Shown piece after piece: positions 4,907-50,910 of a stretch of 64,000 bases of DNA. The notes beneath the pieces are model-generated. The model searched no databases. It was not told the origin of the DNA and was given only the letters and a program-made list of their open reading frames with translations. Position 1 is the first letter of the stretch. Each line of letters begins with the position of its first letter. The position numbers were made by a program, and so were the translations under genes. The DNA is from Pseudoalteromonas gelatinilytica (lineage in GTDB: Bacteria; Pseudomonadota; Gammaproteobacteria; Enterobacterales; Alteromonadaceae): assembly GCF_001641615.1 (NCBI RefSeq), contig NZ_LRRU01000019.1:124001-188000 (forward strand), in the 5' to 3' direction.

Positions 4907-4934
4907 GCTTCCCATAAATTACGTTATGTTAAAT
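4907..4934 (+). other. dif: Candidate dif (XerCD recombination) site
   Basis: This 28-bp site has the architecture of a bacterial dif: XerC arm GCTTCCCATAA (4907-4917), 6-bp centre ATTACG (4918-4923) and XerD arm TTATGTTAAAT (4924-4934). The XerD arm is identical to that of E. coli dif as remembered, and the XerC arm matches E. coli GGTGCGCATAA at 8 of 11 positions. The inner CATAA...TTATG symmetry is intact. It lies in a non-coding stretch (4632-4992). On a unidirectionally replicating chromid, dif should be near the end point of replication, which fits its position 12 kb from the Ter sites. Confidence 0.72.
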
Positions 4935-17093: not shown

Positions 17094-17112
17094 AGTAAGA
17101 TGTGTTCCTATG
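17094..17112 (+). promoter_or_regulatory. Ter-like site 3, overlapping the tus start codon
   Basis: The plus strand reads AGTAAGATGTGTTCCTATG, ending in the tus ATG. It would stop rightward forks. Tus bound here would also cover its own translation-start region, as E. coli TerB overlaps the tus promoter, so autoregulation is likely. The rest of the 16675-17109 gap is AT-rich, with no ORF seen. Confidence 0.66.
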
Positions 17113-17985
17113 AGTTCCAAGTTAGAAATACGTAGTCAGTTTGATTTAGTAAGTGAATTAACTCATTTATTTTGTGAAGAATTAAAGGAAGTGGGTTTTC
17201 ATAAGGCATCATATTATCAACTGCCAGATATCGATATAAACGACGAAAAGAAAGTTCCTTCTTCAATTAGTGTACATAAAATTGAAGGCGATGATGCTCA
17301 TAAACTAATTCTAAATTCCTTTGGTGATTTTTATAAAAAGACAGGATTAAGTAGTCGAGTTTTAAAAAGACATCCAGGCTTATTAGTTTTAAAAGATGTC
17401 GATAAGCAACATTTCATTGCACGGATAAATCAGTTGAATAAAGCCAAAGCTGATTTTAAAAATAGCGTAATAGCTATCGATAATAATGATGCGCGGTTTG
17501 AAGCGGTGCACAATGCAGTTCCTAATCTCATTACACTTGCTGCATATCGTAAGATTCATTTTGAAACTGAATCGCCCTACTCTGTTCGTTTTACTTGGAT
17601 GCACAAACATGCAACTAAAACGCTAACAAAAAAAATGGCTTTAGCAATGTTGGATAAATCGGCAAGTTATTCAAATCCAAGAATGATCGACCAACACTCT
17701 TGGCAAGCGCTAGTTGCACAAGAACAAAGTCGTGTTGCAAGTTTAGGTGATAAAGAAAAATTACGAATTCGCAGGCCAACAAGAGTTAGCCCACAAGTTA
17801 ATGTAAGATATACCGCTCAAAACCGATATCATGTTAGTGCTGCTTTACCTTTTATTTTGATCAATCCAGAACCTGATGTAAAACTTGGTACATTAACTGA
17901 TTATCAAAAACCTGAAAGCCACCCTCGTAAAAGAGAATATGATTTCTTAGTAGATAGACTTTACTTAGAACAAGTAACAGATTGA
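17110..17985 (+). CDS. tus: Replication terminus site-binding protein (Tus homologue)
   Basis: Monomeric protein that binds Ter DNA and halts the replicative helicase in one direction. It has 291 residues (E. coli Tus 309), and several blocks line up with remembered E. coli Tus. [20 protein letters not shown] matches [40 protein letters not shown] matches [34 protein letters not shown] matches LRFGWANKHIIKNL; and [19 protein letters not shown] matches AKLKIKRPVKVQPIARVWY. The latter includes the basic interdomain strands that grip DNA. No clear ribosome binding site precedes ATG 17110. It is convergent with the initiator gene. Confidence 0.9.
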   Translation: [291 protein letters not shown]

Positions 17986-18043: not shown

Positions 18044-19258
18044 TTAGTCTTCGACTATTTCTTCAATTTTGTCTTCATCGATTAATACCGCATTCTCAAC
18101 GATACGTTTTCCACCTTGAATTTCGATTCGTTTGTTATGCTTATTAAGCGTAAGGATCTCATCACAAAATTGGTCAGACGGATGCATCTCGTAAGTGTAA
18201 TCAATAATATTACCTGTCTTGTCATCTTTAACATTGGTAATGTTATATTCAGAGATTGCACCTTTCTCTATTAAATCTTTCATTGTTGTCGTCATATCAC
18301 GACGCAAAGCTTTTAATTTATTTTCTGTAATTTCATCTGTCGAATAGATAGAACCGTATTTTTCCATGATTGATAATAGTCGGAAATGGTAGGTCTTACC
18401 CGGTGCCGCGTAACGCCATAAATGATATAAACGAAGCATCATCCAACGTGACAAACCGCGTTTTAATTCTTGCGCACTATTAAAGTAATAACCTTTATAT
18501 TCAAGGTTATCGATCATGTTATGAACGAAGGCATTTAAACATGCAACACACTTTACGTTTCCGCCTTGTCCTTTTTTACCGCTAAAGTGAAGTGACGACA
18601 AAAAGTTCATATTCGATTCGTAAAATGAATCATCAATATCAGAATTGCGAGTGTCGGTTGCTGAGTATCTAAAAGAAAGTTTAGAACCTTGCAAAGCTTC
18701 TAATGATTCTTTGATTTGCGGATACGGCATTGACTGGCCAACCGCTTTCAGCTCTTGCGCTAATTCATTCATTGAAAAAACAACCGCGTATTGAATACCT
18801 GATTTAAAATTAATTTTTACAATTTTACCTTTAGAGGCTAAACGAATTAAGGCACGCTCGACCTTTTCTTCACGATCAGATGGCCAAACAAGATATTCAA
18901 CATCTTCACCATCTTTTCTTGTGCTTACTACCGCTGGCGTAATTTTGATTTCGCCATCATAAAGAATGCCGTCAACTTTTTCAGAGATTCTTCGTGTTAC
19001 GATGGTTTTCTTTGGTGCTTCTTCAACCGGAAGCTTCTTATGACCAGAACGGACAAAACGTCCCCATAAATCATAATGATTAAAAGTATTTGAGTAAGCT
19101 CTCAAACCATGTGCAGCATTTTCAATTGAAACGCGCACATCTTTGTTGTCTGTAAATAGTGCAAGACTTTCATTATCTATTGCACTTTCCACCCCGTGGA
19201 TCTGCCCGCGTAATGTATCGGGTAAGTTATCTACCGAGATGTTGACCTTTCGGCTCAT
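18044..19258 (-). CDS. Replication initiator protein of the chromid (iteron-binding Rep)
   Basis: Initiator of 404 residues. The start at 19258 (MSRKVNISVDNLPDTL) follows GGAAATAAGAAC; an earlier in-frame ATG would add 18 residues with no support. The sequence reads as tandem winged-helix domains, as in plasmid Rep proteins. One is around EEKVERALIRLASKGKIVKI; a second is around SRWMMLRLYHLWRYAAPG through NKLKALRRDMTTTMKDLIEK. The tail is acidic (IDEDKIEEIVED). Position supports the role: it is minus strand, with iterons directly upstream, DnaA boxes and an AT-rich region beyond, then divergent parAB. Iterons at 19328-19459 lie within 70-200 bp of the start and probably repress it. Confidence 0.83.
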   Translation of the reverse strand: MSRKVNISVDNLPDTLRGQIHGVESAIDNESLALFTDNKDVRVSIENAAHGLRAYSNTFNHYDLWGRFVRSGHKKLPVEEAPKKTIVTRRISEKVDGILYDGEIKITPAVVSTRKDGEDVEYLVWPSDREEKVERALIRLASKGKIVKINFKSGIQYAVVFSMNELAQELKAVGQSMPYPQIKESLEALQGSKLSFRYSATDTRNSDIDDSFYESNMNFLSSLHFSGKKGQGGNVKCVACLNAFVHNMIDNLEYKGYYFNSAQELKRGLSRWMMLRLYHLWRYAAPGKTYHFRLLSIMEKYGSIYSTDEITENKLKALRRDMTTTMKDLIEKGAISEYNITNVKDDKTGNIIDYTYEMHPSDQFCDEILTLNKHNKRIEIQGGKRIVENAVLIDEDKIEEIVED

Positions 19259-19327
19259 TGTTCTTATTTCCAATTTTTCTTCGACAGTTAATAACAACAC
19301 ATAAAACTTCAAAAGTTAAATGTTTAA

Positions 19328-19797
19328 GTTAGTAAAAACTTGATCCGATCTTAATTAATTTCTTAGGATCAGTTTTATACTAACTCATTCGTAAAAGCTA
19401 ATTTTCAGATCAGATTTTTACTAAGTTATAGTTGATAGGTCGTGATTTTACTAACTCAGTTCAAATTATGTCCTGTGAATCGCCTTGTTAAGGCTAATTA
19501 ACACGACATAAATCTCCTTTTTTGAAATTGCATGTGGATAAATCAAGTTCAAGTTAGCATAGATCTGATCTGTACCAACTATAGATCAGATCCATACTAA
19601 CTAAATGCATTAGTTTACCGAGTTCTCAGTGCATAACTTTCTAATTTAGTTAGTAAAATTATGATCTACTCAGGCATATTTGTGAGTAATTTAGTGATTA
19701 AACTGTGCATAACTCAAAAGCCTGTTTTTTACTTAGTAATAAGCTGATCTGTGAGTAATAAGAGATCTGATCTTAACCAAGTAAAACTATGATCTGC
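19328..19797. repeat. Origin iterons (cluster I)
   Basis: Copies of GTTAGTAAAANNNTGATCTR or close variants. Plus-strand copies start at 19328, 19650, 19732, 19753 and 19778. Minus-strand copies lie at 19366-19384, 19406-19428 and 19441-19457, the last with the GATC changed. An inverted pair at 19552-19572 (plus) and 19581-19602 (minus) forms a near-perfect palindrome with doubled GATCTGATCT. The last three plus copies are in tandem, 20-26 bp apart, just before the AT-rich region, the usual place for initiator-driven melting. Confidence 0.85.
19533..19541 (-). promoter_or_regulatory. DnaA box
   Basis: TGTGGATAA on the plus strand, the exact complement of TTATCCACA. A second, TGTGCATAA, lies at 19704-19712 and fits TTATNCACA. 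They suggest DnaA assists the plasmid-type initiator. Confidence 0.78.
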
Positions 19798-19973
19798 TAT
19801 TTTATAAAATATTCAATTAAATCAGATAGATATTATTCTATTTTAGCATCTTAACCTTATATACCTATATACTTAACCGATATTAAACTTACTTATTTAT
19901 ACTTAGCATCAGTAAAGTTACAAATTTTTATTAAATGTCTTATTAATAAAAGGCATGTCGTCTTAAATACTTG

Positions 19974-20002
19974 TTTACAGCAATTTGAATGGACATTATA
20001 CT
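19974..20002 (+). promoter_or_regulatory. Predicted sigma-70 promoter of parAB
   Basis: TTTACA (19974-19979), 17-bp spacer, TATACT (19997-20002), 26 bp before the parA ATG. GAGGAAG just ahead of the ATG supplies the ribosome binding site. Confidence 0.66.
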
Positions 20003-20028
20003 TAAAGCATAACTTTGAGGAAGAAAGT

Positions 20029-21267
20029 ATGTCTATCAATAATAATGCGCTAGCCACTTATAGGTTACTAAAAGCGACAGCAGAAGTTGCTGAAAAATCG
20101 CTAGAAGGACGTATTCAACATTATCGTGCCCACCTTAAGTCTGAAGAAAAAGAACTTCGTACTTACACCCAAAAAGCAGCTGCTGATTTATTAGGCTGTA
20201 ATAATCGTACTTTAAAAAGACGCCATGATAATGGTGATTTTGACGAACTTAATATCAAACGTGGTGCAAATGGCCACTATGCTTACACACTTGTAAATAT
20301 TTTTGCTATGGCTGATATCATGGATATTAAGCCTGATCACCGTACTGCTGATGATAAATTGCAAGTAATTGTGATCAATTCACTTAAAGGTGGTTGTGGT
20401 AAAACGACTAGTATGGTGAATATTGCAGCGGCCCTAGCAACGACCAATATTAAACGTTACAGAATTGGTATTATTGATCTTGATCCACAAGGTTCTTCGT
20501 CAAGTTTCTTCCCTCCAAGTGAGCCTGATCCAATTACAGTTGGTGATTTAATGCGTGATTGCATTGAGCTTGAAGAAAATGAAACCTGGGATGAGTTAGT
20601 AAGCAACTCTTTCCTACCTACTCATATTCCAAATATTCGTATTTTACCATCTGGTATGGATGACTTTTATTTTGAACATGAAACAGCAACTTTATTAAAA
20701 GATAGCTCTAGTTACGATAAAACACGTCATTATCATAAACTGCTAGAAAAAGTTATTGAGCCGGTTAAAGACCAATTTGATATTATTTTAATTGATACAG
20801 CTCCATCTCTTAACTTTATGTTTTATAATGCATTAATGGCTTCAACATCGATGCTTATTCCTGTTCATCCAGAGGCTGTTGATTTTGATGCAAACAACAA
20901 ATATTTAAAACGTTTAGGTGAGATTTACCATACAGTTGCAGCCCTTGGTCACGAAGGCTGGGATTTTATGCAATTCTTAGTGACTAACTATGTTAAAGGT
21001 AACCATTCACAGCGCGACATCGTTAAAGATGTACGTAGTGCCTTTGGACGCCAAGTTATGAGCTATCCAATTAATCATAGTTCTGCAATTACTGCCAGCT
21101 CATCATCTTTTAATACTATTTTTGATCAAAAAACGTCAGATAGCCTGGCGAGTCGTGAGTCATTACTCCGCGCTCAAGAAAATATCAAAGATGTGGTTGA
21201 TGAACTTGAAATGCTGATCCGTTCGAATTGGCTATCAACTCAATCGACTCTCAATCCAGCTAAGTAA
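20029..21267 (+). CDS. parA: ParA-family partition ATPase with N-terminal DNA-binding domain
   Basis: ATPase that moves replicon copies apart during division. It has 412 residues. The N-terminal about 105 residues contain a helix-turn-helix (KAAADLLGCNNRTLKRR), the type Ia (P1/F, Vibrio chromosome II) layout in which ParA also represses its own operon. The deviant Walker A KGGCGKTT is at residues 120-127, followed by IIDLDPQGSSS (148-158) and Walker B FDIILIDTAPS. parB follows after 14 bp. Confidence 0.95.
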   Translation: MSINNNALATYRLLKATAEVAEKSLEGRIQHYRAHLKSEEKELRTYTQKAAADLLGCNNRTLKRRHDNGDFDELNIKRGANGHYAYTLVNIFAMADIMDIKPDHRTADDKLQVIVINSLKGGCGKTTSMVNIAAALATTNIKRYRIGIIDLDPQGSSSSFFPPSEPDPITVGDLMRDCIELEENETWDELVSNSFLPTHIPNIRILPSGMDDFYFEHETATLLKDSSSYDKTRHYHKLLEKVIEPVKDQFDIILIDTAPSLNFMFYNALMASTSMLIPVHPEAVDFDANNKYLKRLGEIYHTVAALGHEGWDFMQFLVTNYVKGNHSQRDIVKDVRSAFGRQVMSYPINHSSAITASSSSFNTIFDQKTSDSLASRESLLRAQENIKDVVDELEMLIRSNWLSTQSTLNPAK

Positions 21268-21281
21268 GGTAATTAATAAAA

Positions 21282-22244
21282 ATGGCTAAAAAACGTAAAA
21301 ACGATACCAGCTTAGACCCTTTTTCAACGTCTATCGAAAGCAGCAGTTTAGATGCTTTACTAGAGCAAGCTTCTGCTGGTGATGTTATCAGTATGCCTGC
21401 TCCAAGCGATCCTAATCGCCAAATCACTTTAGTGTGTAAGGTCATTCCAAGCTCAGAAATTGAAGCTAAAACAAAGGTATATGGTAAAAACCGCCGAGTA
21501 CAATCATTACTAAATGAAAAGTCAGTCGCTGATATTCTACCTGCAATTGCCGAAGACGGCCGTAACCAGCACCCTGCCCTATGTTGGGATAAAGGTGATG
21601 AAATGCTTGTATTAGCAGGCTCTCGTCGTCGTAAAGCATGTATCTTAAGTAACTCTGATTATTTAGTTCTAAGCTCTGAAGATTTTACTGATCAAGATGC
21701 TAAAATTCTTGCTGTATCATCAGATCAATACATTGCGCCAAGTCTATGGGAGCTTGGTCAGGCTTATCAACAGACCCGTGATGAGCTTATTGCTGAAGGT
21801 AAAAAAGGCTCTTATCGTGAGATTGCTGCAATTGAGGGGGTATCACACACTGCCATTGCTGACGCTATCAAAGCCTACGAGAACCTACCAGCGTCGGTTT
21901 TAAGTCTCTACCCTACGGCGAACCATGTTGGCCGTGAAGTGGCTAAAAAGCTTATTAGCGCTAAAGAGCGTGATGAGCAACTGTTCACCAAGCTAGTTAA
22001 TGACGTAAGTAGTGATGCCGAAATTGCGCAAATGACTAGCGATGATAAACGTGCTCTTGCAATAACTAAGCTATTAACCGCTGAACCAGCAGCCCCTAGC
22101 CGTCGTGAAGCGCTTATCGACAGTGAGTTTGTTAGCTTACAACGCAATATTAAAAGCGGTGATTTATCTGTCAAAATCGATAATAAAGTGATGACAGACA
22201 AACGCTTAGAGCAGCTAACTAAACTTTTAAATAGCTTTAACTAG
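21282..22244 (+). CDS. parB: ParB-family centromere-binding protein
   Basis: Binds the partition site and activates ParA. It has 320 residues, close to Vibrio ParB2 as remembered. The CTPase/ParB box GSRRRKA is at 113-119, a helix-turn-helix (SYREIAAIEGVSHTAIADAI) at about 177-196, and a C-terminal region that probably dimerises. Its stop codon lies at the very start of iteron cluster II, whose first repeat uses the final base of the gene. The matching parS was not identified with certainty. Confidence 0.93.
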   Translation: MAKKRKNDTSLDPFSTSIESSSLDALLEQASAGDVISMPAPSDPNRQITLVCKVIPSSEIEAKTKVYGKNRRVQSLLNEKSVADILPAIAEDGRNQHPALCWDKGDEMLVLAGSRRRKACILSNSDYLVLSSEDFTDQDAKILAVSSDQYIAPSLWELGQAYQQTRDELIAEGKKGSYREIAAIEGVSHTAIADAIKAYENLPASVLSLYPTANHVGREVAKKLISAKERDEQLFTKLVNDVSSDAEIAQMTSDDKRALAITKLLTAEPAAPSRREALIDSEFVSLQRNIKSGDLSVKIDNKVMTDKRLEQLTKLLNSFN

Positions 22245-22442
22245 TTAGTAAAATAATGATCTATCGCGCTTTTACAGTTAGTAAAAGCGTGATCTACTCT
22301 TCCTTTTTGTTAGTAAAATGATGATCTGAAAAAGCAAAATACAGCTCTTTTTGGGTTGTCAGATCAATTTTTTACTAACTTATCGCCCCTTTACAGGCTT
22401 TTTTGCACTTTACCCTGCTTGGTTAGTAAAAAAACGATCTGT
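22244..22442. repeat. Iteron cluster II, downstream of parB
   Basis: Five strong copies of GTTAGTAAAANNNTGATCTR: plus strand at 22244, 22277, 22309 and 22422 (the last with CGATCT), and minus strand at 22361-22380. The first three start 33 and 32 bp apart, about three helical turns, so bound proteins would lie on one face. GCCCCTTTACAG (22385-22396) and CTGTAAAGCCCCC (22439-22451) are half-copies of the 17-bp motif found elsewhere in the window. The gene-free interval runs 22245-22659 and nothing else is recognised beyond 22452. These may be initiator handcuffing sites or the partition site. Confidence 0.82.
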
Positions 22443-22659: not shown

Positions 22660-25600
22660 ATGTCTGCTAACTTATCCAAAAATGACTTATTAGCTATCTT
22701 TGAAGAAATCAAACAAGAGCAAGAAACTCAGTTTCCTCTGTCTGAGCGCTTCATTAAACAGCTGTTTAAGCCACATGTGTTAAGTAAAGCGAAAGAGTAT
22801 CACCAGAACGGCCAAATCAATTGGTTAGAACATAACAGTGATTTTAGTGTTATCGATGCATCTATGTTTGGTAACGAAGGAAATACCTTCACTCAGCATA
22901 TTGAGATCAGTAAATTACCAAGTGGCTTTTCGGTCGATTCACATTGTACTTGTGGTTCTAAAACCAAGTGCCGTCATATCGCGGCTGTGCTCCTTAAGCT
23001 CAAAATAGAACATTCTGGCGATTATGGGGAAGACTACATCATTAACGACTGGTTTAGTGAGCTTAAAACCCTTAAGCAAATTGCCAACGATAATGCCAAA
23101 CACGTTTTATTATTCGTCCTTGATGTAGAGAAATCTGTTGTCACCCTTACCCCTAAAATTGCTAATTATGATGCTGAGCATAATTATACTCTCGGACGAA
23201 ACCTAACCGAGCAGCAGTTAAATAGTTTTGTAACCCCCACTGATTTATTAGAAACTGATTTTCGTTTATATAGCTGGATCCGTTCTCAAAATGCCCTTGG
23301 TAAATTAGAGCTTAAAGGCCAATGGGGTTTTGCAGCACTGCAGCAATTAATTGCTACCCAGCGTTTGTTTTTAGGTCGCTCTCGCCAAGCAATTAAAGCT
23401 GATAGCATGCAAGCATTAGAGTTTGATTGGAAACAAAACAAAGACTTAACATCGTTGAGCATGACGCTTGCTGGCCAAGATAATTGGTTATTGCTTAAAA
23501 CAACCCCCCCTACTTATCTTGACCCTGAAAAACTAAAGGTAGGTCGTATTCGTACTCCGTTAACGGCAGATGAGATTGCTTTACTTGCCAATATGCCAGC
23601 TATTCACACAGAGAACTTTGACCGCGTTTATCAACAACTCAATGATAATTTTGGCGAAGGTGTGATCCCTCATGCATTTAAGCAAAGTAAAAAAAGCCTA
23701 GCTAGAACGGTATTCCCAGTCATCAGTATTAATAATGATGAGGGAACAATTCGTTTATCATTGCAGTTTAATTATCAAAACTCTTTGTATGATTTAAGCC
23801 AAGCGCCAGCGGATATACTAAATCAGTCATTAGAAAACACCGTTGTAAATGAGTTAACTAACCTTGGCTTTGAATTATGTAAAGGGGCTTTACAATCAGA
23901 GTTTGTCTTTAATAAACAATCAGTTATTCATGAGCACTGGTTAAAGTTCGAAATAATTCCAAACTTATTAAAACGTGGTTGGAAAATTAATGATGAGTTA
24001 GACGTCGGCAAAGTTCTAAAACAACTTTCACTGCAAGTTGAGCGTGGTAAAGGCCATCAGATAGTTGGTAAAATCGTGATCTCTGGTGTCAAAACTCAGC
24101 AACTATTTGTTACAGATAATAATACTTATCAGTCACTTAACAGACAAAGTGAACGCTTTTATTACTTTACAGTAGGGAAACGCTTTGCGGTGGTAGAAAA
24201 GGCCGCGATGATGCAACTTAATGATTATCGTGAACGTTTTGAGCATATTAAAACCCGTGACGAAATCTTAATGCCTTTATCGTTTTTGCCTAAGCTTATC
24301 GAGCAAAAAGCAATTAAGGTTAATATTGTCGACGATGCACTTGATGCGTACTTATCTGAACTAAATAGCTCACAACAACTTATTAAAAAGTCCGATATTC
24401 AAGGCTTAAACCAAGGTGTGCAATTACGTGAGTACCAACAGCACGGTGTTGATTGGCTTAACTTTTTAAAACGTCATCAACTTGGTGGTATTTTGGCAGA
24501 TGACATGGGGCTAGGTAAAACCTTACAAGTTATTGCCTTTTTAGCTAATGCCAAGCAATCACCACAAGCAGGCCCTACGTTAATTGTTTGCCCAACCAGC
24601 TTGGTCGGTAATTGGCAAAGCGAAATCAATAAGTTTGCGAGCAACTTAAAAATCACCACCGTATTTGGTGCTGCGCGCAGCGACCAATTACAACAGTTGT
24701 CGCAAGCAGATTGTATCTTAACAACGTACCCACTGTTGAAACGTGACATTGCCTTTTATTCGCCGCTGTATTTTGAAAACATCATTCTTGATGAAGCGCA
24801 ATATATCAAAAACGATGCCGCGCAGGTATCGCGGTTAGTTAAGCGCCTTAATGCTGACTTTAAGCTCTGCTTAAGCGGCACGCCTATTGAAAATAACTTA
24901 TTTGAGCTTAAATCTTTGCTTGACTTTGCAATGCCCTCTTTGCTTGGTTCGCAAACACATTTTAAGAGTTATTTTCAAACGCCTATTGAGCGTGATAACG
25001 ATGTTGCCCGTGCAGATGAGCTTAAATCGTTGATCATGCCATTTATCTTGCGTCGAACTAAAGCTCAGGTAACGCAAGAGCTACCAGAGAAGACTGAGCT
25101 AGTTAAAGAGTTTGAATTTGAAAGCAAACAAAAAGAAATCTACACCGGTATCACTGAATCTTTAGAACAGAAATTAGTCGACCTATTTGCGCAGCAAGGT
25201 GTGCAAAAAAGTAAGCTAGCCTTTTTAGATGCATTGTTAAAGCTAAGACAAATCTGCTGTCATCCAAAATTGATCGATCCTAGTTCACAGGCTGGCAGCG
25301 CAAAGCTTGAGTGGTTATCTAAGCATTTGCCTATCATGCTTAGCGAAGGTCGAAAGGTGATTATATTTAGTCAATTCACCATGGCACTTGATGTGATAGC
25401 AGAGCGATTAAATGAATTAGGCATCAGCTTTAGTATGCTCACAGGGCAAACACGACACCGCGACCGTGTTATCGAAGAGTTTACTCAAGGTGATACATCC
25501 GTGTTTTTAATTAGCCTTAAAGCCGGCGGTACAGGGCTAAACCTAACTCAAGCTGATACTGTGATTCATTTTGATCCTTGGTGGAACCCTGCTGTTGAGA

Positions 25601-30460: not shown

Positions 30461-31093
30461 ATGGACGCAAAGCATTGGCATCAACGTTGGGAAAATAACG
30501 AAATAGGTTTTCATGAAGGAGACGTTAACCGTTACCTAGATCACTATTTTACTAACTTAAATTTACAGCAAGGCGATACTTTTTTTGTGCCACTGTGTGG
30601 CAAAACTCACGACATTCATTATTTGCTCGCGCAAGGTATGCGTGTTGTTGGGGCTGAGCTTAGTGAGATTGCCATTAAGCAATTATTTGATGAGTTAAAA
30701 CTAGAACCCGAAATCAGCCAACACGGCGAGCTATTACGTTACCAAGGCGCAAATCTAACCGTTTGGGTAGGTGATATCTTTGCACTGACCGCGAATGAAC
30801 TTGGCACTATCAACGCGGTTTATGACCGTGCTGCCTTAGTTGCGCTGCCAAAGCCCATGCGCATTCGCTATACCCAGCATTTACTAGAGTTGACCAATAG
30901 AGCTAAACAATTAGTGGTGGTCTTTGAGTATCAGCAAAATGAATTTTCGGGTCCGCCGTTTAGTGTAGTCGCCGATGAGCTACATCAGCACTACGATGCT
31001 TTTTATCAGCTAACATTACTGTGCAAAGAGCCTCTCGAAGGTGGCTTAAGAGGGCAAATCCCCGCCATGAACGTTGCTTGGTATTTAAGTTAG
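30461..31093 (+). CDS. tpm: Thiopurine S-methyltransferase
   Basis: SAM-dependent methyltransferase of 210 residues. In bacteria it also detoxifies tellurite and selenite by methylation. The conserved start HWHQRWENNEIGFHEGDVN, the SAM site FVPLCGKTHDIHYLLAQGMRVVGAELSEIAI, and DRAALVALP are all present. AGGAG lies upstream. An iteron copy is embedded in codons 26-33. Confidence 0.94.
   Translation: MDAKHWHQRWENNEIGFHEGDVNRYLDHYFTNLNLQQGDTFFVPLCGKTHDIHYLLAQGMRVVGAELSEIAIKQLFDELKLEPEISQHGELLRYQGANLTVWVGDIFALTANELGTINAVYDRAALVALPKPMRIRYTQHLLELTNRAKQLVVVFEYQQNEFSGPPFSVVADELHQHYDAFYQLTLLCKEPLEGGLRGQIPAMNVAWYLS
30538..30558 (-). repeat. Isolated iteron copy within tpm
   Basis: The minus strand reads AAGTTAGTAAAATAGTGATC, a full match to the origin iteron consensus, 11 kb from the origin. 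It encodes LDHYFTNL of tpm on the other strand. Confidence 0.65.
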
Positions 31094-45830: not shown

Positions 45831-46565
45831 TTACTCAAATACCATCGCGTTTTTTAGCTGCTGCTTTTGTTCTGCAGTTGGTAAAAATCCAGTTTGTACA
45901 AACTCATTAAGGCTTGAGTGACGTTCAAAGTAAAGAATATCAAGGGCAAAACGATTCATGCCGTACAAGCCCCGATGGATCATATTTGCCGAAAATATGA
46001 GTAAGTCACCTTTTTTGAGTGCCACACTTTTACCGCGAGTCAGTGAGTCACTATTGCTAGCGCCCTGTTGTTCTAATCTAACAGTTAACTCTTCATCAGA
46101 ATCCCAGTTTTTATGACTACCCGGTATTAGTTCTATTCCCGGTTCATCTTCAAAAGCAACGCGGCAATGTAATACTTCAGGGCCGCTAAGAGCGGCCTTT
46201 TGCGCATCAAGCTCTAAGTGATACTGCATATCGCGATGCCAATAATTTGCTTGTTTAGAGTTGTAAGGGTTAAAGAATAGTTGAGTATTCATAAACTGAG
46301 GATCAGCAACAATACCTTTAACCTGTTTCAATAGAGTGTTAGCGCTGACAAACTCAAAAAGAGCAAACTTTTCCTCAACACTTAAACATGCAGCGCCAGT
46401 CAAACCTGAGCTATTAATCCCTCTGGATTGGTAAAAAGGTTGGTTTTCTTGCAACCAGTGATGATGAAATTTATCGAGAATTGGCCTTACCTTGCTAAGC
46501 TCACTCTCTGTGTAAAGGCCCTTTACATGGTAGTAGCCATTTTCAGCAAAAAAGTTATTTTCCAT
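45831..46565 (-). CDS. Phytanoyl-CoA dioxygenase-family Fe(II)/2-oxoglutarate oxygenase
   Basis: A 244-residue PhyH-type hydroxylase. Iron ligands: His and Asp in YWHRDMQYHLE and the distal His in ANMIHRGLYGMNRFALDI, where the following Arg binds 2-oxoglutarate. The terminal GLYTESELSKVRPILDKFHHHW is the family's N-terminal helix. It is three bases from the uracil-DNA glycosylase gene. Substrate unknown. Confidence 0.87.
   Translation of the reverse strand: MENNFFAENGYYHVKGLYTESELSKVRPILDKFHHHWLQENQPFYQSRGINSSGLTGAACLSVEEKFALFEFVSANTLLKQVKGIVADPQFMNTQLFFNPYNSKQANYWHRDMQYHLELDAQKAALSGPEVLHCRVAFEDEPGIELIPGSHKNWDSDEELTVRLEQQGASNSDSLTRGKSVALKKGDLLIFSANMIHRGLYGMNRFALDILYFERHSSLNEFVQTGFLPTAEQKQQLKNAMVFE
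46511..46527 (+). repeat. 17-bp inverted motif, copy 3
   Basis: TGTAAAGGCCCTTTACA, a perfect palindrome around one central base, inside the start of the oxygenase gene. It lies 184 bp left of the distal iteron cluster. Confidence 0.55.
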
Positions 46566-46568
46566 TTT

Positions 46569-47150
46569 TTACCTTGCTAAAATTGCACGTATTTTACTAC
46601 TAAGCTCAGGCAATACTTGTTGCTCAAACCACGGATTTTTCTTTAGCCAGATATTATTGCGAGGGCTTGGGTGAGGCAGTGGCAAGTAATTTGGCCAATA
46701 TTCACGCCACGATTTTACTAACTCAGTTAAGGGCAGCTGCTTAGTGTGGGGTAAATGATATGCCTGCGCATACTTTCCTAAGATAATGGTGAGCTCAATA
46801 TTATTTAGTTGCGCTAAGAGCTTTTCACGCCATGCAATCGCGCACTCTTTTCTTGGCGGTAAATCACCTGATTTTCCTTTGCCAGGGTAACAAAAACCCA
46901 TCGGCAAGATAGCAAAATTGTGCTCATCGTAAAATTCATCGCTTGTTACACCAAGCCAAGAGCGAAGCCTTTGCCCGCTTGAATCATTAAAAGGTTTGCC
47001 ACTTTCATGTACTTTAGTTCCTGGCGCTTGACCGGCAATTAAAATACGAGCTCGAGGATTAAATTGAATAACGGGCCGCGCCCCAAGAGCTAAATGAGGC
47101 TCGCAGATCACGCATTTACTAACTTGTTCAATTAGTGTTTGAGTACTCAT
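46569..47150 (-). CDS. Uracil-DNA glycosylase family protein
   Basis: A 193-residue member of the uracil-DNA glycosylase superfamily (COG1573 type). Motif 1 is LIAGQAPGTKVHESGKPFNDSSG and motif 2 is LPHPSPRNN; a Cys pair near the N terminus (CVICEPH) could be part of the Fe-S ligand set of family 4/5 enzymes, but a complete set is not visible. Probable base-excision role in the cytoplasm. The first codons contain an iteron copy. Confidence 0.82.
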   Translation of the reverse strand: MSTQTLIEQVSKCVICEPHLALGARPVIQFNPRARILIAGQAPGTKVHESGKPFNDSSGQRLRSWLGVTSDEFYDEHNFAILPMGFCYPGKGKSGDLPPRKECAIAWREKLLAQLNNIELTIILGKYAQAYHLPHTKQLPLTELVKSWREYWPNYLPLPHPSPRNNIWLKKNPWFEQQVLPELSSKIRAILAR

Positions 47151-47169
47151 GAGTTAGTAAAAATATGAT

Positions 47170-47532
47170 CTATGCTTGTTTTGACCAAACTGCTAACTCG
47201 TTACCACTTGGCTCTGTGAAGTGAAAACGACAGCCTCCAGGAAAATCAAACAAGGGCTTAATAATTGTGCCACCGTGTTTTTCTACCTGCGCTTGTGTCT
47301 CTTTAATATTATTTGAATAAAGCACCAGTAGCGCGCCGCCATTATTGGTTAAGCTAGTTAATGGGGCTTGATAAAAACCGCCATCAAGGCCTGCTGATTC
47401 AGCGCTAAAGGCCGTGTATTCAGGGCCATAATCGGTAAATTGCCATTTAAAAACCTGATGAAAAAATGCTTTTGTTGCGGCTAAATCTTTAGCAGCAAAT
47501 TCAACATAATTTAGGCTATGGTGGTTCGACAT
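47170..47532 (-). CDS. VOC-family (glyoxalase/bleomycin-resistance fold) protein
   Basis: A 120-residue single VOC domain: NYVEFAAKDLAATKAFFHQVFKWQFTDYGPEYTAF, then LLVLYSNNIKETQAQVEKHGGTIIKPLFDFPGG, RFHFTEPSGNELAVWS. The terminal Glu and His-type metal positions are plausible. Substrate unknown. It sits between the UDG and racemase genes on the same strand, 9-20 bp from each. Confidence 0.87.
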   Translation of the reverse strand: MSNHHSLNYVEFAAKDLAATKAFFHQVFKWQFTDYGPEYTAFSAESAGLDGGFYQAPLTSLTNNGGALLVLYSNNIKETQAQVEKHGGTIIKPLFDFPGGCRFHFTEPSGNELAVWSKQA

Positions 47533-47541
47533 GGTGTGCTC

Positions 47542-48234
47542 CTAATTTAAACTATTCTCAAGCGCCATAGCGCAATGAAGTGCTGTACTATCAAGTAGTG
47601 GAATCGATGTATCTGCTTGTTGAACTAACAAGGCTATTTCGGTGCAACCAAGAATAATGGCTTCAGCACCTTGCTGAGTTAGATTATCAATAATGGTTAA
47701 ATACTCGGCTTTAGATTCTGGGCTGATGATGCCTTTACATAGTTCATCATAAATCACTCGATGCACTGTTTCACGCCCCTGAGCATCAGGAATTAACACC
47801 TCTATCGCGAATTTATCAGCTAGCCGTTGTTTGTAAAAGTCTTGTTCCATGGTGAACTGGGTACCCAACAAAGCCACTTTTTTAAAGTTATGTTGGATCA
47901 GGTTTTCACCAACTGCATCTGCAATGTGTAATAAAGGAATTGCAACCGCCGCTTGTACTTGCTCAGCTAGTTTATGCATGGTGTTGGTACAAATTAATAA
48001 ATAATCCGCGCCCGCAGCTTCAACTTGCTTAGCGGCTTTAATGAGTATCTCGGCCATCTGTGGCCAATCTTGTTGCTGTTGTAGCACTGCTATTTCTGCA
48101 AAATCGAGACTGACGAGTACTATCTTGGCACTGTGCAGACCCCCAAGTTTGTTTTTAACACCTTGATTTAAAAGCTGGTAGTAACTTTGTGTAGACTCCC
48201 AACTCATGCCACCGATTAAGCCTATTGTTTTCAT
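47542..48234 (-). CDS. Aspartate/glutamate racemase family protein (YgeA-like)
   Basis: A 230-residue racemase. Conserved start MKTIGLIGGMSWESTQSYYQLLN; the two catalytic cysteines are in LICTNTMHKLA and ILGCTEIALL. E. coli YgeA acts on several amino acids. It probably supplies D-amino acids or recycles them. Last gene upstream in the minus-strand run 45831-48234. Confidence 0.9.
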   Translation of the reverse strand: MKTIGLIGGMSWESTQSYYQLLNQGVKNKLGGLHSAKIVLVSLDFAEIAVLQQQQDWPQMAEILIKAAKQVEAAGADYLLICTNTMHKLAEQVQAAVAIPLLHIADAVGENLIQHNFKKVALLGTQFTMEQDFYKQRLADKFAIEVLIPDAQGRETVHRVIYDELCKGIISPESKAEYLTIIDNLTQQGAEAIILGCTEIALLVQQADTSIPLLDSTALHCAMALENSLN

Positions 48235-48435
48235 TACAACTCCCTTTTTATTTACTTAACACCATATGATATTGCACAGAACAAAGCTAGCAGATCATTA
48301 TTTTACTAACAGTTCGACTTAGTTTGATTTGTTTCACTATTTAATACGTGCATGCAAATGATAACTACTATCTTTTATATTTGTCGGCGATATAATACGG
48401 GGTTTTCTTCTCGTGTTATTTTTTAAGGGATTATC

Positions 48436-48780
48436 ATGCATTCTCAATCATTAGATGCAGTGACAACCAATCGCCCTAAAAATACAGCTAAAAAGCGCTC
48501 TGTGAGCCTATCTTATCGTGTTGCTGTGTTTTTGCGTTTCGTTGCGGCCATTATTGGTGGTTACGCCTTTACCAGTGTGCTTATTTCATTACTCGCTGTG
48601 TTATTACCACTTAATAAACTCGACAGCGTGCTGTTAACCACGACTCTATCGGTATTTTTTTACTGTTGTGTGTTTATTTGGGTATTTGCGGTTAAGTCTT
48701 TAAAGACGATTTGGATCACTATTTTACTAACAACTGGTGGGCAATTGCTGGCCCTTTCATTGATTAAGGGATGGTTATGA
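48436..48780 (+). CDS. DUF3649 membrane protein (iron-uptake operon)
   Basis: A 114-residue protein with three hydrophobic segments, beginning with a basic stretch (KKRSVSLSYRVAVFLRFVAAIIGGYAFTS). This start and length fit DUF3649. Translationally coupled to the PepSY gene (ATGA overlap). In my recollection DUF3649, PepSY and DUF3325 genes together handle ferric siderophores at the inner membrane. The stretch WITILLT is encoded by an iteron copy. Confidence 0.78.
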   Translation: MHSQSLDAVTTNRPKNTAKKRSVSLSYRVAVFLRFVAAIIGGYAFTSVLISLLAVLLPLNKLDSVLLTTTLSVFFYCCVFIWVFAVKSLKTIWITILLTTGGQLLALSLIKGWL

Positions 48781-50378
48781 AAGAGAGCTTTTTCCGCTCA
48801 ATGACCTGGCTTCATACCTGGGTTGGCCTACTGGTGTGCTGGTTACTGTTCTTAATCTTTTTTGCTGGCACCATCAGCTTTTTTAAGGATGAAATCACTA
48901 TTTGGGCCAAGCCCGAAACACACCATGTGCAGCATCAGGCGCAACGGGTTCAGTCTCAAGCCGATCAAATTAATTATGTGTTTGCGCAATTACAGCAACA
49001 GGCACCTAATTCATTATCTTGGCGAATAAACTTACCTGAGCCGCGTAACCCTATTTTAAGCTATGGGTTTGCTGAGCCTAAACAGCCTGGTCAGCGCCGT
49101 GCGCCTTTCAACTATACGTATCTAGACCCTAATACCTTAGAACAATTGCCTGAGCCTCGGGATACTAAGGGGGGGAATTTTTTCTATCGTTTGCACTTTG
49201 ATTTACATTACATAGATGTATTTACTGCGCGGATAATTGTTTGTTTAGCTTCATTATTTATGTTGGTTGCGCTTATAACTGGCATCGTGATCCACAAACG
49301 TATTTTTAAAGATATGTTTAGCTTTAGAGCAAACAAAGGTAGCCGAAGTTGGCTTGATGCACACAATGTTTCGTCGGTGCTGGCATTACCATTTCATATC
49401 ATGATCACCTACACGGGAATTATCACGTTGATATTTATGCTGTTCCCCTACCCTGCCGAAACCGTATATGAAAATGGCTTAAGGCAAATGTTTGATGAGG
49501 CATTGCCTATTAACAAACGTGCCAAGCCTTGTGAAGAGCAGCGCCCTATGGTGGCAATCAAAGATGTATTAGATCAGATTTATACTAAGTCACCGAATGC
49601 TGACATTAGCTATGTGTTTGTAAGAAATGCCAATACAGCGACCTCACAAATTGTGGTTTATTTGGCAACCGGCAAAGAGGTTGTAGATAACGGACCACGC
49701 TACTTATTCAATGGTGTAACAGGTGAGCTTGAAGCGAGTTCAGGCGAAGATTGGAGCGCTTCGGCGCAGTTTTATGACTCAATGACAGCATTACATAGCG
49801 GTCGCTTAGCGGAGCCTTTACTGCGTTGGTTGTATTTTTTCTGTGGTGTTGCAGGCTGTGCCATGATAGCTACAGGCTGCATCATGTGGGCTAAGCGCTT
49901 ACGCGAGAGACTCAAAGCAGGCCAAAAACCAAGCTTTGGACTTAAGCTCGTTGAGACACTAAATTTAGCCACACTGATGGGCTTACCCCTTGCAACCGCA
50001 GCGTTCTTCATTGCCAATCGTTTATTACCTTTAGAGTTAGCTGGGCGTGCCGATAAAGAAATACTCGTGTTTTTCTTAGCGTGGCTGGCGATGTTAGTTG
50101 TTGCTGTGACTGGCCGAGAAAAACGCCACTGGCGCTATAGTGCTTGGCTTAACGCGGCTGCTTGCTTATTAGTACCTGTGGTAAATGCGTTGACAACAGA
50201 TGGTAATTGGATCACGTATTTACTAACTCAGCAGTGGGCCTTATTCGGTATTGATAGTGCGTTTATTTTTGCTGGGCTGCTGTTTTTACTACAAAGCAAA
50301 AAAATACCTAGCCATAAAACCGCTACAAATAAGACTAAATTAAATAAAAACAGGCTGTTAAAGGAGCAACAAGGATGA
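48777..50378 (+). CDS. PepSY-associated TM protein (PiuB-like)
   Basis: A 533-residue inner-membrane protein. The ATG at 48777, with AAGGG six bases upstream and an ATGA overlap, is preferred to one six bases earlier. First helix FFRSMTWLHTWVGLLVCWLLF, PepSY-type periplasmic segments around RLHFDLHYIDVFTARIIVCLASL and WLDAHNVSSVLALPFHIMITYTG, and several further helices. His pairs in the helices resemble haem-b ligands of ferric reductases, so reductive iron release from siderophores is plausible. Confidence 0.87.
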   Translation: MKESFFRSMTWLHTWVGLLVCWLLFLIFFAGTISFFKDEITIWAKPETHHVQHQAQRVQSQADQINYVFAQLQQQAPNSLSWRINLPEPRNPILSYGFAEPKQPGQRRAPFNYTYLDPNTLEQLPEPRDTKGGNFFYRLHFDLHYIDVFTARIIVCLASLFMLVALITGIVIHKRIFKDMFSFRANKGSRSWLDAHNVSSVLALPFHIMITYTGIITLIFMLFPYPAETVYENGLRQMFDEALPINKRAKPCEEQRPMVAIKDVLDQIYTKSPNADISYVFVRNANTATSQIVVYLATGKEVVDNGPRYLFNGVTGELEASSGEDWSASAQFYDSMTALHSGRLAEPLLRWLYFFCGVAGCAMIATGCIMWAKRLRERLKAGQKPSFGLKLVETLNLATLMGLPLATAAFFIANRLLPLELAGRADKEILVFFLAWLAMLVVAVTGREKRHWRYSAWLNAAACLLVPVVNALTTDGNWITYLLTQQWALFGIDSAFIFAGLLFLLQSKKIPSHKTATNKTKLNKNRLLKEQQG

Positions 50379-50710
50379 TGGAGTTACTGCAATTTAGTCT
50401 CTGCTTTTTAGGGTTTAATTGTTTTGCACTTGCAAAATTCAATCATTTCCGTGATGTATTCAAAAAGAAATTAACCGAAAAACAGCGAAATAGCTTTTTA
50501 TTAAGCGGCTGGATCAGTATTTTACTAAGTTTAGTGCTTTGCGTGCTGTCAGATGCTGGGTACGGCGCATTGCTGTTTTGCGGTTATATGGCTTTAAGTG
50601 TACTTATGCTCATGATTTTATACAGTTTTACTGTTTCATGGGTAAAGCATGTTAGCGTATTAACTATGTCTGTTTTGCTATTGTGTGGCTTTTCGGTGAT
50701 GATTTTCTAG
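50375..50710 (+). CDS. DUF3325 membrane protein
   Basis: A 111-residue protein with four hydrophobic segments (LLQFSLCFLGFNCFALAKFNHF at the start). Starts in an ATGA overlap with the PepSY gene. Third gene of the iron operon. An iteron copy lies in its middle (GWISILLSL) and another just past its stop. Confidence 0.75.
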   Translation: MMELLQFSLCFLGFNCFALAKFNHFRDVFKKKLTEKQRNSFLLSGWISILLSLVLCVLSDAGYGALLFCGYMALSVLMLMILYSFTVSWVKHVSVLTMSVLLLCGFSVMIF

Positions 50711-50910
50711 CTTAGTTAGTAAAAAACTGATCTCATGCCAATTTGCAATAATGCTTAATGGAGCAAATTGTTTAAAAAAAATGGGTAGGCAATGCCTACC
50801 CAAGCAGGGGATTAAATTGGGGGATCACATGTTGCTTCAATTTAACGATGCATAGTTTGCCTAGCATCCATTACAGTTGTGTTGCACATTAGTGATAGTT
50901 TAAAGACAGT

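Follow-up and report, generated by a model that had tools for sequence, protein, structure and literature searches.

Why should repeats of the kind found in a replication origin be gathered a second time 27-31 kb away from it? The question is raised by a stretch of 64,000 nucleotides of Pseudoalteromonas gelatinilytica DNA (the window; contig NZ_LRRU01000019.1, G000:C11:124001-188000), which belongs to a 4.8-Mb genome in 23 contigs and is the origin region of the Pseudoalteromonas chromid. Profile searches place tus, repA, ori2, parA2, parB2 and an SNF2-type helicase gene in the window, a set that resembles the conserved chromid origin cluster of the genus, for which replication by RepA and ori2 has been demonstrated (PMC7858055; this and the other papers are cited from the parts of their text that were available). 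A sequence-only reading had pointed to eight iterons in a distal cluster and had likened them to the distal initiator sites of Vibrio cholerae chromosome 2. Here it is proposed as the probable reading that the distal cluster, a block of the same iterons behind fbaA on chromosome 1 and ori2 form one network of RepA sites, with a brake and a timer.

The distal cluster and its conservation

With up to two mismatches, the iteron TTAGTAAAANNNTGATC has 23 matches in the window, compared with a mean of 1.08 and a maximum of 4 in 100 shuffles, and nine of the 23 lie at 47106-50732, five of these being exact. The exact sequence occurs 15 times in the whole 4.8-Mb genome, 13 times in the window and twice on contig C10; the motif is therefore not equally frequent across the genome, equal frequency being the outcome that the sequence-only reading had named as speaking against its own proposal. 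A matrix of 22 columns, trained solely on 12 sites of ori2 and of the array following parB2 (the post-parB array), finds ten sites of at least 16 bits at 46702-50735, with scores of 16.9-28.8 bits:

46702..46723, minus strand: distal site 1, in the uracil-DNA-glycosylase-like (UDG-like) gene; 16.9 bits; overlaps the top codon-conserved stretch of the gene
47103..47124, minus strand: distal site 2, at the 5' end of the UDG-like gene; 23.0 bits
47152..47173, plus strand: distal site 3, mostly intergenic, with a 4-base overlap with the 3' end of a glyoxalase-family open reading frame (ORF); 28.8 bits
47893..47914, minus strand: distal site 4, in a racemase gene; 18.9 bits; in near relatives only
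48290..48311, minus strand: distal site 5, intergenic; 27.3 bits; a site is nearby in most of the first 20 loci
48711..48732, minus strand: distal site 6, in a 114-aa ORF, peptide WITILLT; 23.0 bits; top codon-conserved stretch of the ORF
49569..49590, minus strand: distal site 7, in the PepSY_TM gene; 24.4 bits; top codon-conserved stretch of 535 codons
50207..50228, minus strand: distal site 8, in the PepSY_TM gene, peptide WITYLLT; 22.0 bits; in near relatives only
50509..50530, minus strand: distal site 9, in the DUF3325 gene, peptide WISILLS; 22.3 bits; top codon-conserved stretch
50714..50735, plus strand: distal site 10, after the DUF3325 gene; 26.1 bits

The presence of an origin-type iteron cluster after ori2 is confirmed by the shuffles, the matrix and the genome-wide counts, eight being a slight undercount of its sites. 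The nearly empty 16 kb described ahead of it also holds, as no matrix site of at least 16 bits lies between 30557 and 46702, and the distance of 27-31 kb is correct relative to ori2 (19259-20028); likewise, the peptides WITILLT, WITYLLT and WISILLS, said to be shaped by iterons, coincide with sites in three adjacent genes. Outside ori2, the post-parB array and the distal cluster, the only window sites of at least 16 bits are those at 30536 and 24063, and at 9 bits or more there are 35 matches in the window versus 8 in the reversed window. Over the whole genome, one mismatch gives 32 matches to TTAGTAAAANNNTGATC and one to the reversed pattern, and two mismatches give 147 and 76, respectively (among the matches listed); since the reversed control reaches 76 versus 147, the two-mismatch copies outside the clusters are mostly background. 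Exact copies are present in all 60 genomes of the genus that were searched, this one included, and the exact reversed pattern has no match in 58 of the 60 and one each in G005 and G020 (both among the matches listed). A chance origin of the sites is ruled out by the shuffles, the genome-wide counts, this genus-wide presence and the conservation of codons.

The distal locus was compared in 34 of 42 relatives, which have an intact and strong orthologue of the PepSY gene among the matches listed (G004, G014, G015, G027, G031, G037, G041 and G043 were left out, and also the split gene of G038). All 34 have 6-12 sites of at least 16 bits in the 5.2-kb locus, and around the PepSY_TM orthologue they add up to 383 matches of at least 14 bits, versus 10 in the reversed sequence. 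The sites in the PepSY gene (site 7) and in the DUF3325 gene (site 9) are found in 30 of the 34, and those in the 114-aa ORF (site 6) and after the DUF3325 gene (site 10) are at the matching place in 21. In twenty loci the sites are scattered, and the 1.05 kb around the end of DUF3325 and site 10 holds 2-3 of them; in the other fourteen (L112-L125), this 1.05-kb stretch holds 6-12. The distal sites are also kept in divergent relatives in which the host protein is just 48-63% identical (among the matches listed).

In codon alignments of 30 to 35 sequences, divided into seven-codon stretches, the stretch with the highest synonymous-codon identity overlaps an iteron in all four genes tested (the UDG-like gene, the 114-aa ORF, PepSY and DUF3325), ranking first of the 105 to 529 stretches per gene. 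In the UDG-like gene, distal site 2 holds stretches 8-10, which are among the highest after that of site 1. For the four genes tested, these synonymous-codon peaks rule out protein constraint alone. The second PepSY site (50207) has no codon-conservation peak and may be lineage-specific. The codon comparison supports the distal sites as initiator-type sites under selection at the DNA level.

In addition to the GATC-bearing iteron, there is a class in which CGGTTT replaces the GATC half, with 42 matches versus 2 reversed ones at up to one mismatch, counted in the partly redundant loci L021-L204; this class suggests that some sites would be insensitive to methylation. A GATC-less variant of the AGTTAGTAAAAAATCGGTTT type is present five times, with one mismatch at most, next to degenerate GATC sites at L022:11400-11600, which corresponds to G000:C11:195.4-195.6 kb, about 7 kb past the window, and the same type of variant is also seen in the post-parB and distal regions of relatives. 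A weak site, AGTTGGTAAAAATCCAGTTTGT, which is like the GATC-less variant, is located at 45876-45897, 0.8 kb ahead of the distal cluster.

Position on the chromid and the block behind fbaA

The features of the window that place the cluster in the replication cycle are the following:

4911..4934, plus strand: dif2-like site, at which replication of the chromid likely ends (G000:C11:128911-128934; 3 mismatches to the pattern)
17110..17985, plus strand: tus, replication terminus-binding protein (E 2.7e-90, below the curated cut-off)
18044..19258, minus strand: repA, chromid initiator, 404 aa, starting at the Met at which the shortest relatives begin
19259..20028, no strand: ori2, with nine iterons of at least 16 bits and 13 GATC
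19327+, 19364-, 19405-, 19435-, 19552+, 19581-, 19648+, 19731+, 19776+: the ori2 iterons (matrix, at least 16 bits)
19533: DnaA-box-like TGTGGATAA in ori2
19704: DnaA-box-like TGTGCATAA in ori2
20029..21267, plus strand: parA2 (AAA_31 over the cut-off, partition_RepA below it)
21282..22244, plus strand: parB2 (ParB/RepB/Spo0J family plasmid partition protein, below the cut-off; without a Pfam match)
22243..22442, no strand: post-parB iteron array (22243+, 22276+, 22308+, 22359-, 22421+; matrix)
24063..24084, plus strand: single iteron in the SNF2-helicase gene (matrix; same position in close relatives)
30536..30557, minus strand: single iteron in the thiopurine methyltransferase gene (matrix)

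The repA ORF was listed with 422 aa and probably starts too far upstream in that form; relatives of RepA are present in 59 of the 60 genomes of the genus. The post-parB array is found in one large group of relatives and in two divergent species (L191 and L195) and is absent from the other group, and locus L135 ends before the position of the array.

The dif2-like site sits on the tus side of ori2, and the GC skew is negative at 8-24 kb and turns positive to the right of 24 kb. Of 17 genomes, 2 had a match to an E. coli-like dif pattern; with a pattern derived from those hits, all of 18 genomes had a match, in some cases outside chromosome 1. In this genus, dif-like sequences depart from the E. 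coli type. In most Pseudoalteromonas species, the chromid is reported to replicate one way, with dif2 near ori2 (PMC7858055); together with the side of dif2 and the skew, this suggests a fork that sets out across parAB and reaches the cluster within about 30 kb. In 38 of 38 genomes, chosen for having both markers on one contig and including this one, the distal locus is found 27-178 kb from ori2 on the early-replicated side, in either orientation; the direction of replication was derived from dif2 and skew, and 14 of the distances were taken round the circle. Similarly, of the 110 exact chromid sites in ten complete genomes, 27 belong to ori2 and 82 to the 200 kb next to it on the early side, the last one lying elsewhere. 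Origin-type sites that are clustered outside the origin and replicated early are the trait of a distal titration locus; the comparison with V. cholerae made in the sequence-only reading is supported by this position and by the DNA-level selection. An extra group of five exact iterons, the only one among the ten genomes, is located at G047:C2:479690-479991, 184 kb from ori2.

The two exact copies on contig C10 are part of a group of six matches (with at most two mismatches, among the matches listed) at C10:233089-233335, three on the minus strand and then three on the plus strand, between fbaA and a porin gene that is followed by phoB and phoR (all four gene names were confirmed). At 14 bits, at least two sites are present behind fbaA in 59 of 59 relatives, in the divergent, minus-then-plus arrangement in 55 of them; 297 matches lie within 2.3 kb of fbaA and none elsewhere in those 7-kb loci, with 12 in the reversed sequence. 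Because fbaA and dnaA share a contig in all 16 genomes whose chromosome-1 contig measures 3.15-4.25 Mb, C10 (409 kb) is taken to be part of chromosome 1. Chromosome 1 of the ten complete genomes has 11 exact copies, eight of which are in the block (in 6 genomes), and the block has 12 GATC in the 320 bp counted. In 60 loci, the 2.2 kb that follow the block were read for their longest ORF, which matches phoR in 31 loci, the porin in 25 and phoB in 1, the remaining 3 matching none of these genes; since this ORF varies, the block is tied to no single downstream gene, and a porin promoter element is ruled out. A single conserved chromosome-1 locus with initiator-type sites is the trait of Vibrio crtS, and the fbaA block is a candidate for its Pseudoalteromonas counterpart. 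The one-contig, 99% complete genome at L033 (G001:C1) has the chromosome-1 block and no repA, its chromid being either missing from the deposit or lost.

The position of the block was compared with the length of the chromid in 15 of 17 near-complete genomes, leaving out G001 (no repA in the assembly) and G020 (chromosome 1 in pieces). The chromosome-1 path after fbaA exceeds the longest chromid path by 0.18 to 0.41 Mb in all 15, with a mean of 0.26 and a standard deviation (SD) of 0.074, and the best fixed arm fraction tried has an SD of 0.107; fractions shuffled among genomes reach the observed SD in 0.0008 of 20,000 trials. G059 has no chromosome-1 dif-like hit, and the antipode was used; G017 fits only via its dif2, 411 kb from ori2, the one-way mode giving about -0.2 Mb. 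These values are suggestive of a block position that tracks the replication length of the chromid, an indication that weakens after phylogenetic correction. In Vibrionaceae, the distance from crtS to ter1 was compared with the chromid arm in a like manner and the shift was read as a delay (PMC5854411).

The predicted binder

RepA is favoured as the binder of the iterons because of the ori2 iterons, a P. carrageenovora plasmid, the iterons of IncC and the matches of a structure model. At least three iterons are found within ori2 in 73 of 73 loci of RepA relatives, all of them close relatives (72 titled Pseudoalteromonas and one a metagenome-assembled genome, among at most 80 relatives listed). 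Also, as in two-winged-helix iteron initiators, repeated directional sites of about 20 bp adjoin the initiator gene. The P. carrageenovora plasmid pKCTC22325 encodes a RepA with 50% identity and has three iteron copies beside that rep gene (L205:1904-2429), as well as weaker iteron-like matches near it of 17.6, 14.7 and 11.2 bits, three control matches scoring 11.8-12.7. A second, unrelated rep gene of pKCTC22325 has a ParAB-like pair alongside, 25% and 21% identical to that of the window; this plasmid pair is about 12 kb from the iteron-bearing rep gene and has no strong iteron copies. With iterons beside one of the two rep genes, chromid and plasmid may compete for initiators. The RepA of IncC, 27% identical, has its own adjoining 19-bp iterons, and the P. 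spongiae plasmid has no iteron in the stretch on one side of rep.

RepA matched no Pfam or NCBIfam family at 0.001, looser limits gave weak families or none for RepA and its plasmid relatives, and a PDB search by the RepA sequence returned nothing useful. The structure model of RepA is poor (mean predicted local distance difference test, pLDDT, of 50.9), and it stayed poor because a search of viral contigs for alignment depth added one relative; the structures that it matches best are domains 2-3 of RctB, pi and RepE. At low confidence, the model points to a winged-helix fold that RepA and RctB may have in common. In hhalign, a RepA profile of 7 sequences aligned to an RctB from Vibrio with a probability of 4.1 over 34 columns, which shows no sequence homology to RctB. 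The suggestion of a different initiator family therefore stands at the level of sequence, but may not extend to the fold. A 128-kb IMG/VR viral contig (L210:2767-3879), possibly a phage-plasmid, encodes a RepA-like initiator with 30% identity.

The proposed site network as brake and timer

From the sites themselves, their restriction to these places, their conservation, the selection in four genes, the early position and the partner on chromosome 1, all of which the analysis shows, we infer RepA as the binder, titration as the effect and triggering by the chromosome-1 block. The distal cluster would be a set of RepA binding sites outside the origin, copied early by the fork that runs from ori2 over parAB. 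Its GATC-bearing sites, doubled shortly after initiation, would deprive the two new origins of free RepA, so that neither could start again within that cell cycle, and the arrangement fits an early-duplicated, datA-like brake on RepA. The divergent block behind fbaA would be the second arm, the replication of which would give ori2 the signal for initiation and let the two chromosomes end together, in the manner of crtS in Vibrio, and ori2 would be the third arm, joined in one species group by the post-parB array. Dam and SeqA are encoded in the genome, which makes methylation timing possible, and with them the GATC of the sites could add a hemimethylated period. That Pseudoalteromonas has a two-chromosome checkpoint of its own, which arose from a plasmid initiator with a distant relationship to the IncC one, with the fbaA block as the timer that triggers the chromid and the distal cluster as brake, is given a chance hardly better than even.

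Several observations weigh against this network. An intact and strong orthologue of the PepSY host gene is absent from 17 of the 60 genomes (among the matches listed), of which G002, G017, G042 and G050 carry other groups of sites; G049 has no exact site beyond the post-parB array, and GATC-less variants of the iteron exist. No iteron is found near rep in the P. donghaensis plasmid (RepA about 50% identical; one 14-bit match 8 kb from rep) and in pTML1 (48%). At 16 bits, the fbaA block has at least two sites in 57 of 59 relatives and is divergent in 52; four loci have a single orientation at 14 bits, the sites of G016 are 2 kb from fbaA, exact copies are missing from the block in four of the ten complete genomes, and three of the 11 exact chromosome-1 copies are single strays. 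Regarding the position of the block, the correlation falls to r=0.50 (P=0.06) with phylogenetic independent contrasts, and the partial correlation to -0.30 (P=0.27). Furthermore, six of the 15 chromid path lengths rest on an assumed mode of replication (one-way for G008, G021, G025, G046 and G047, the distance between dif2 and ori2 being 14 kb, and two-way for G002), and the sole chromosome-1 dif-like hit of G040 (1.135 Mb) was replaced by the antipode, the lag being otherwise about 0.69 Mb.

The same sites can be read in other ways. Both the chromosome-1 block and the distal cluster might be passive sinks for RepA without any timing signal from chromosome 1, which overlaps with the network proposed here as far as the chromid cluster is concerned and is given a smaller, though real, share of the probability. 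The two are built of the same iteron; Vibrio crtS, to our knowledge, is not built of iterons. The description of crtS as a unique RctB site (PMC5991422) also favours sinks, but the block stands at one gene in 59 of 59 relatives, is divergent in 55 and is kept when the downstream neighbour changes, and the reported synchrony of termination (PMC7858055) needs some signal. The sites might instead be the centromere of the chromid, bound by ParB2 and serving segregation rather than initiation. In favour of this, an array stands immediately behind parB2; no separate parS2 was found here, though no search aimed at parS2 was made, and the P. carrageenovora plasmid carries a distant ParAB-like pair. 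The probability of a centromere is nevertheless low, as the ori2 iterons are in 73 of 73 loci, yet the post-parB array is missing from a whole group, and on that plasmid the motif adjoins the 50%-identical RepA and not the 21%-identical ParB-like gene; moreover, the motif is non-palindromic, and the centromere of a chromid would hardly be expected to have a block on chromosome 1.

Operators through which RepA or another regulator controls the surrounding genes would account for the sites at 47152, 48290 and 50714, which lie between genes; seven of the ten sites, however, are inside coding sequence, spread over five different genes, the locus has kept its sites through changes of its place and orientation relative to ori2, and the gene behind the chromosome-1 block varies among species, which makes this reading very improbable. 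Iteron-type repeats are plasmid-like, as a relic of an ancestral origin or of an integrated plasmid would be, but no rep gene is among the cluster genes named by profile search, selection acts at the level of codons, and the number of sites is steady at 6-12 while their arrangement varies, so that a relic is hardly credible.

The network of RepA sites proposed here can be compared with known systems. In E. coli, nucleotide switching by DnaA sets datA and DARS apart, as we know of no nucleotide binding by RepA. Like the proposed RepA sites, datA and DARS are initiator-binding loci outside the origin that tune initiation, with datA near the origin (PMC3937223). On V. cholerae chromosome 2, distal RctB sites about 40 kb from the origin are early-duplicated, GATC-containing iterons (Baek and Chattoraj 2014, PMC3937223), and these distal sites inhibit replication while the chromosome-1 site enhances it (PMC3937223). 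The Pseudoalteromonas cluster shares with them initiator-type chromid sites, early duplication and iterons with GATC, and differs in having 10 sites in 4 kb, with TTAGTAAAANNNTGATC instead of TGATCA-centred 12-mers, an initiator without detectable sequence similarity to RctB and a chromid that is replicated one way in most species (PMC7858055). Similarly to crtS of Vibrionaceae, which is one conserved chromosome-1 locus with several GATC, placed so that the chromosomes end jointly (PMC5991422, PMC5854411, PMC6090056), the fbaA block is a single locus; unlike crtS, this candidate is visibly made of origin-type iterons in divergent blocks. IncC RepA-type iteron plasmids share with the chromid a homologous RepA, at 27% identity, and adjoining 19-bp iterons.

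The two chromosomes of Pseudoalteromonas terminate in synchrony, and the paper that reports this found no crtS-like site and states that the mechanism needs study (PMC7858055). In the literature searched, which lacks most subscription papers, no paper, judged by its title, the opening of its abstract or the available passages, describes RepA iterons outside ori2 or a chromosome-1 trigger in Pseudoalteromonas; the available part of PMC8496264 names crtS only for Vibrionaceae, and PMC12053903 contains neither 'crtS' nor 'iteron'. In Agrobacterium, methylation-based control has been named for the timing of the secondary chromosome (PMC13342612), and further inter-chromosome timers are called an open question (PMC7858055, PMC13342612).

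For the timing of a secondary chromosome relative to the main one, a mechanism is known in Vibrio crtS, and in a marine genus a candidate brake and a candidate timer now have coordinates. Pseudoalteromonas has already been used in conjugation and plasmid replication assays (PMC7858055), and with the candidate coordinates these make the question directly testable. If the proposal is true, it would add a second inter-chromosome trigger system beside that of RctB and crtS, on a chromid that is mostly replicated one way, and the same kind of circuit would have been built around an initiator unrelated in sequence.

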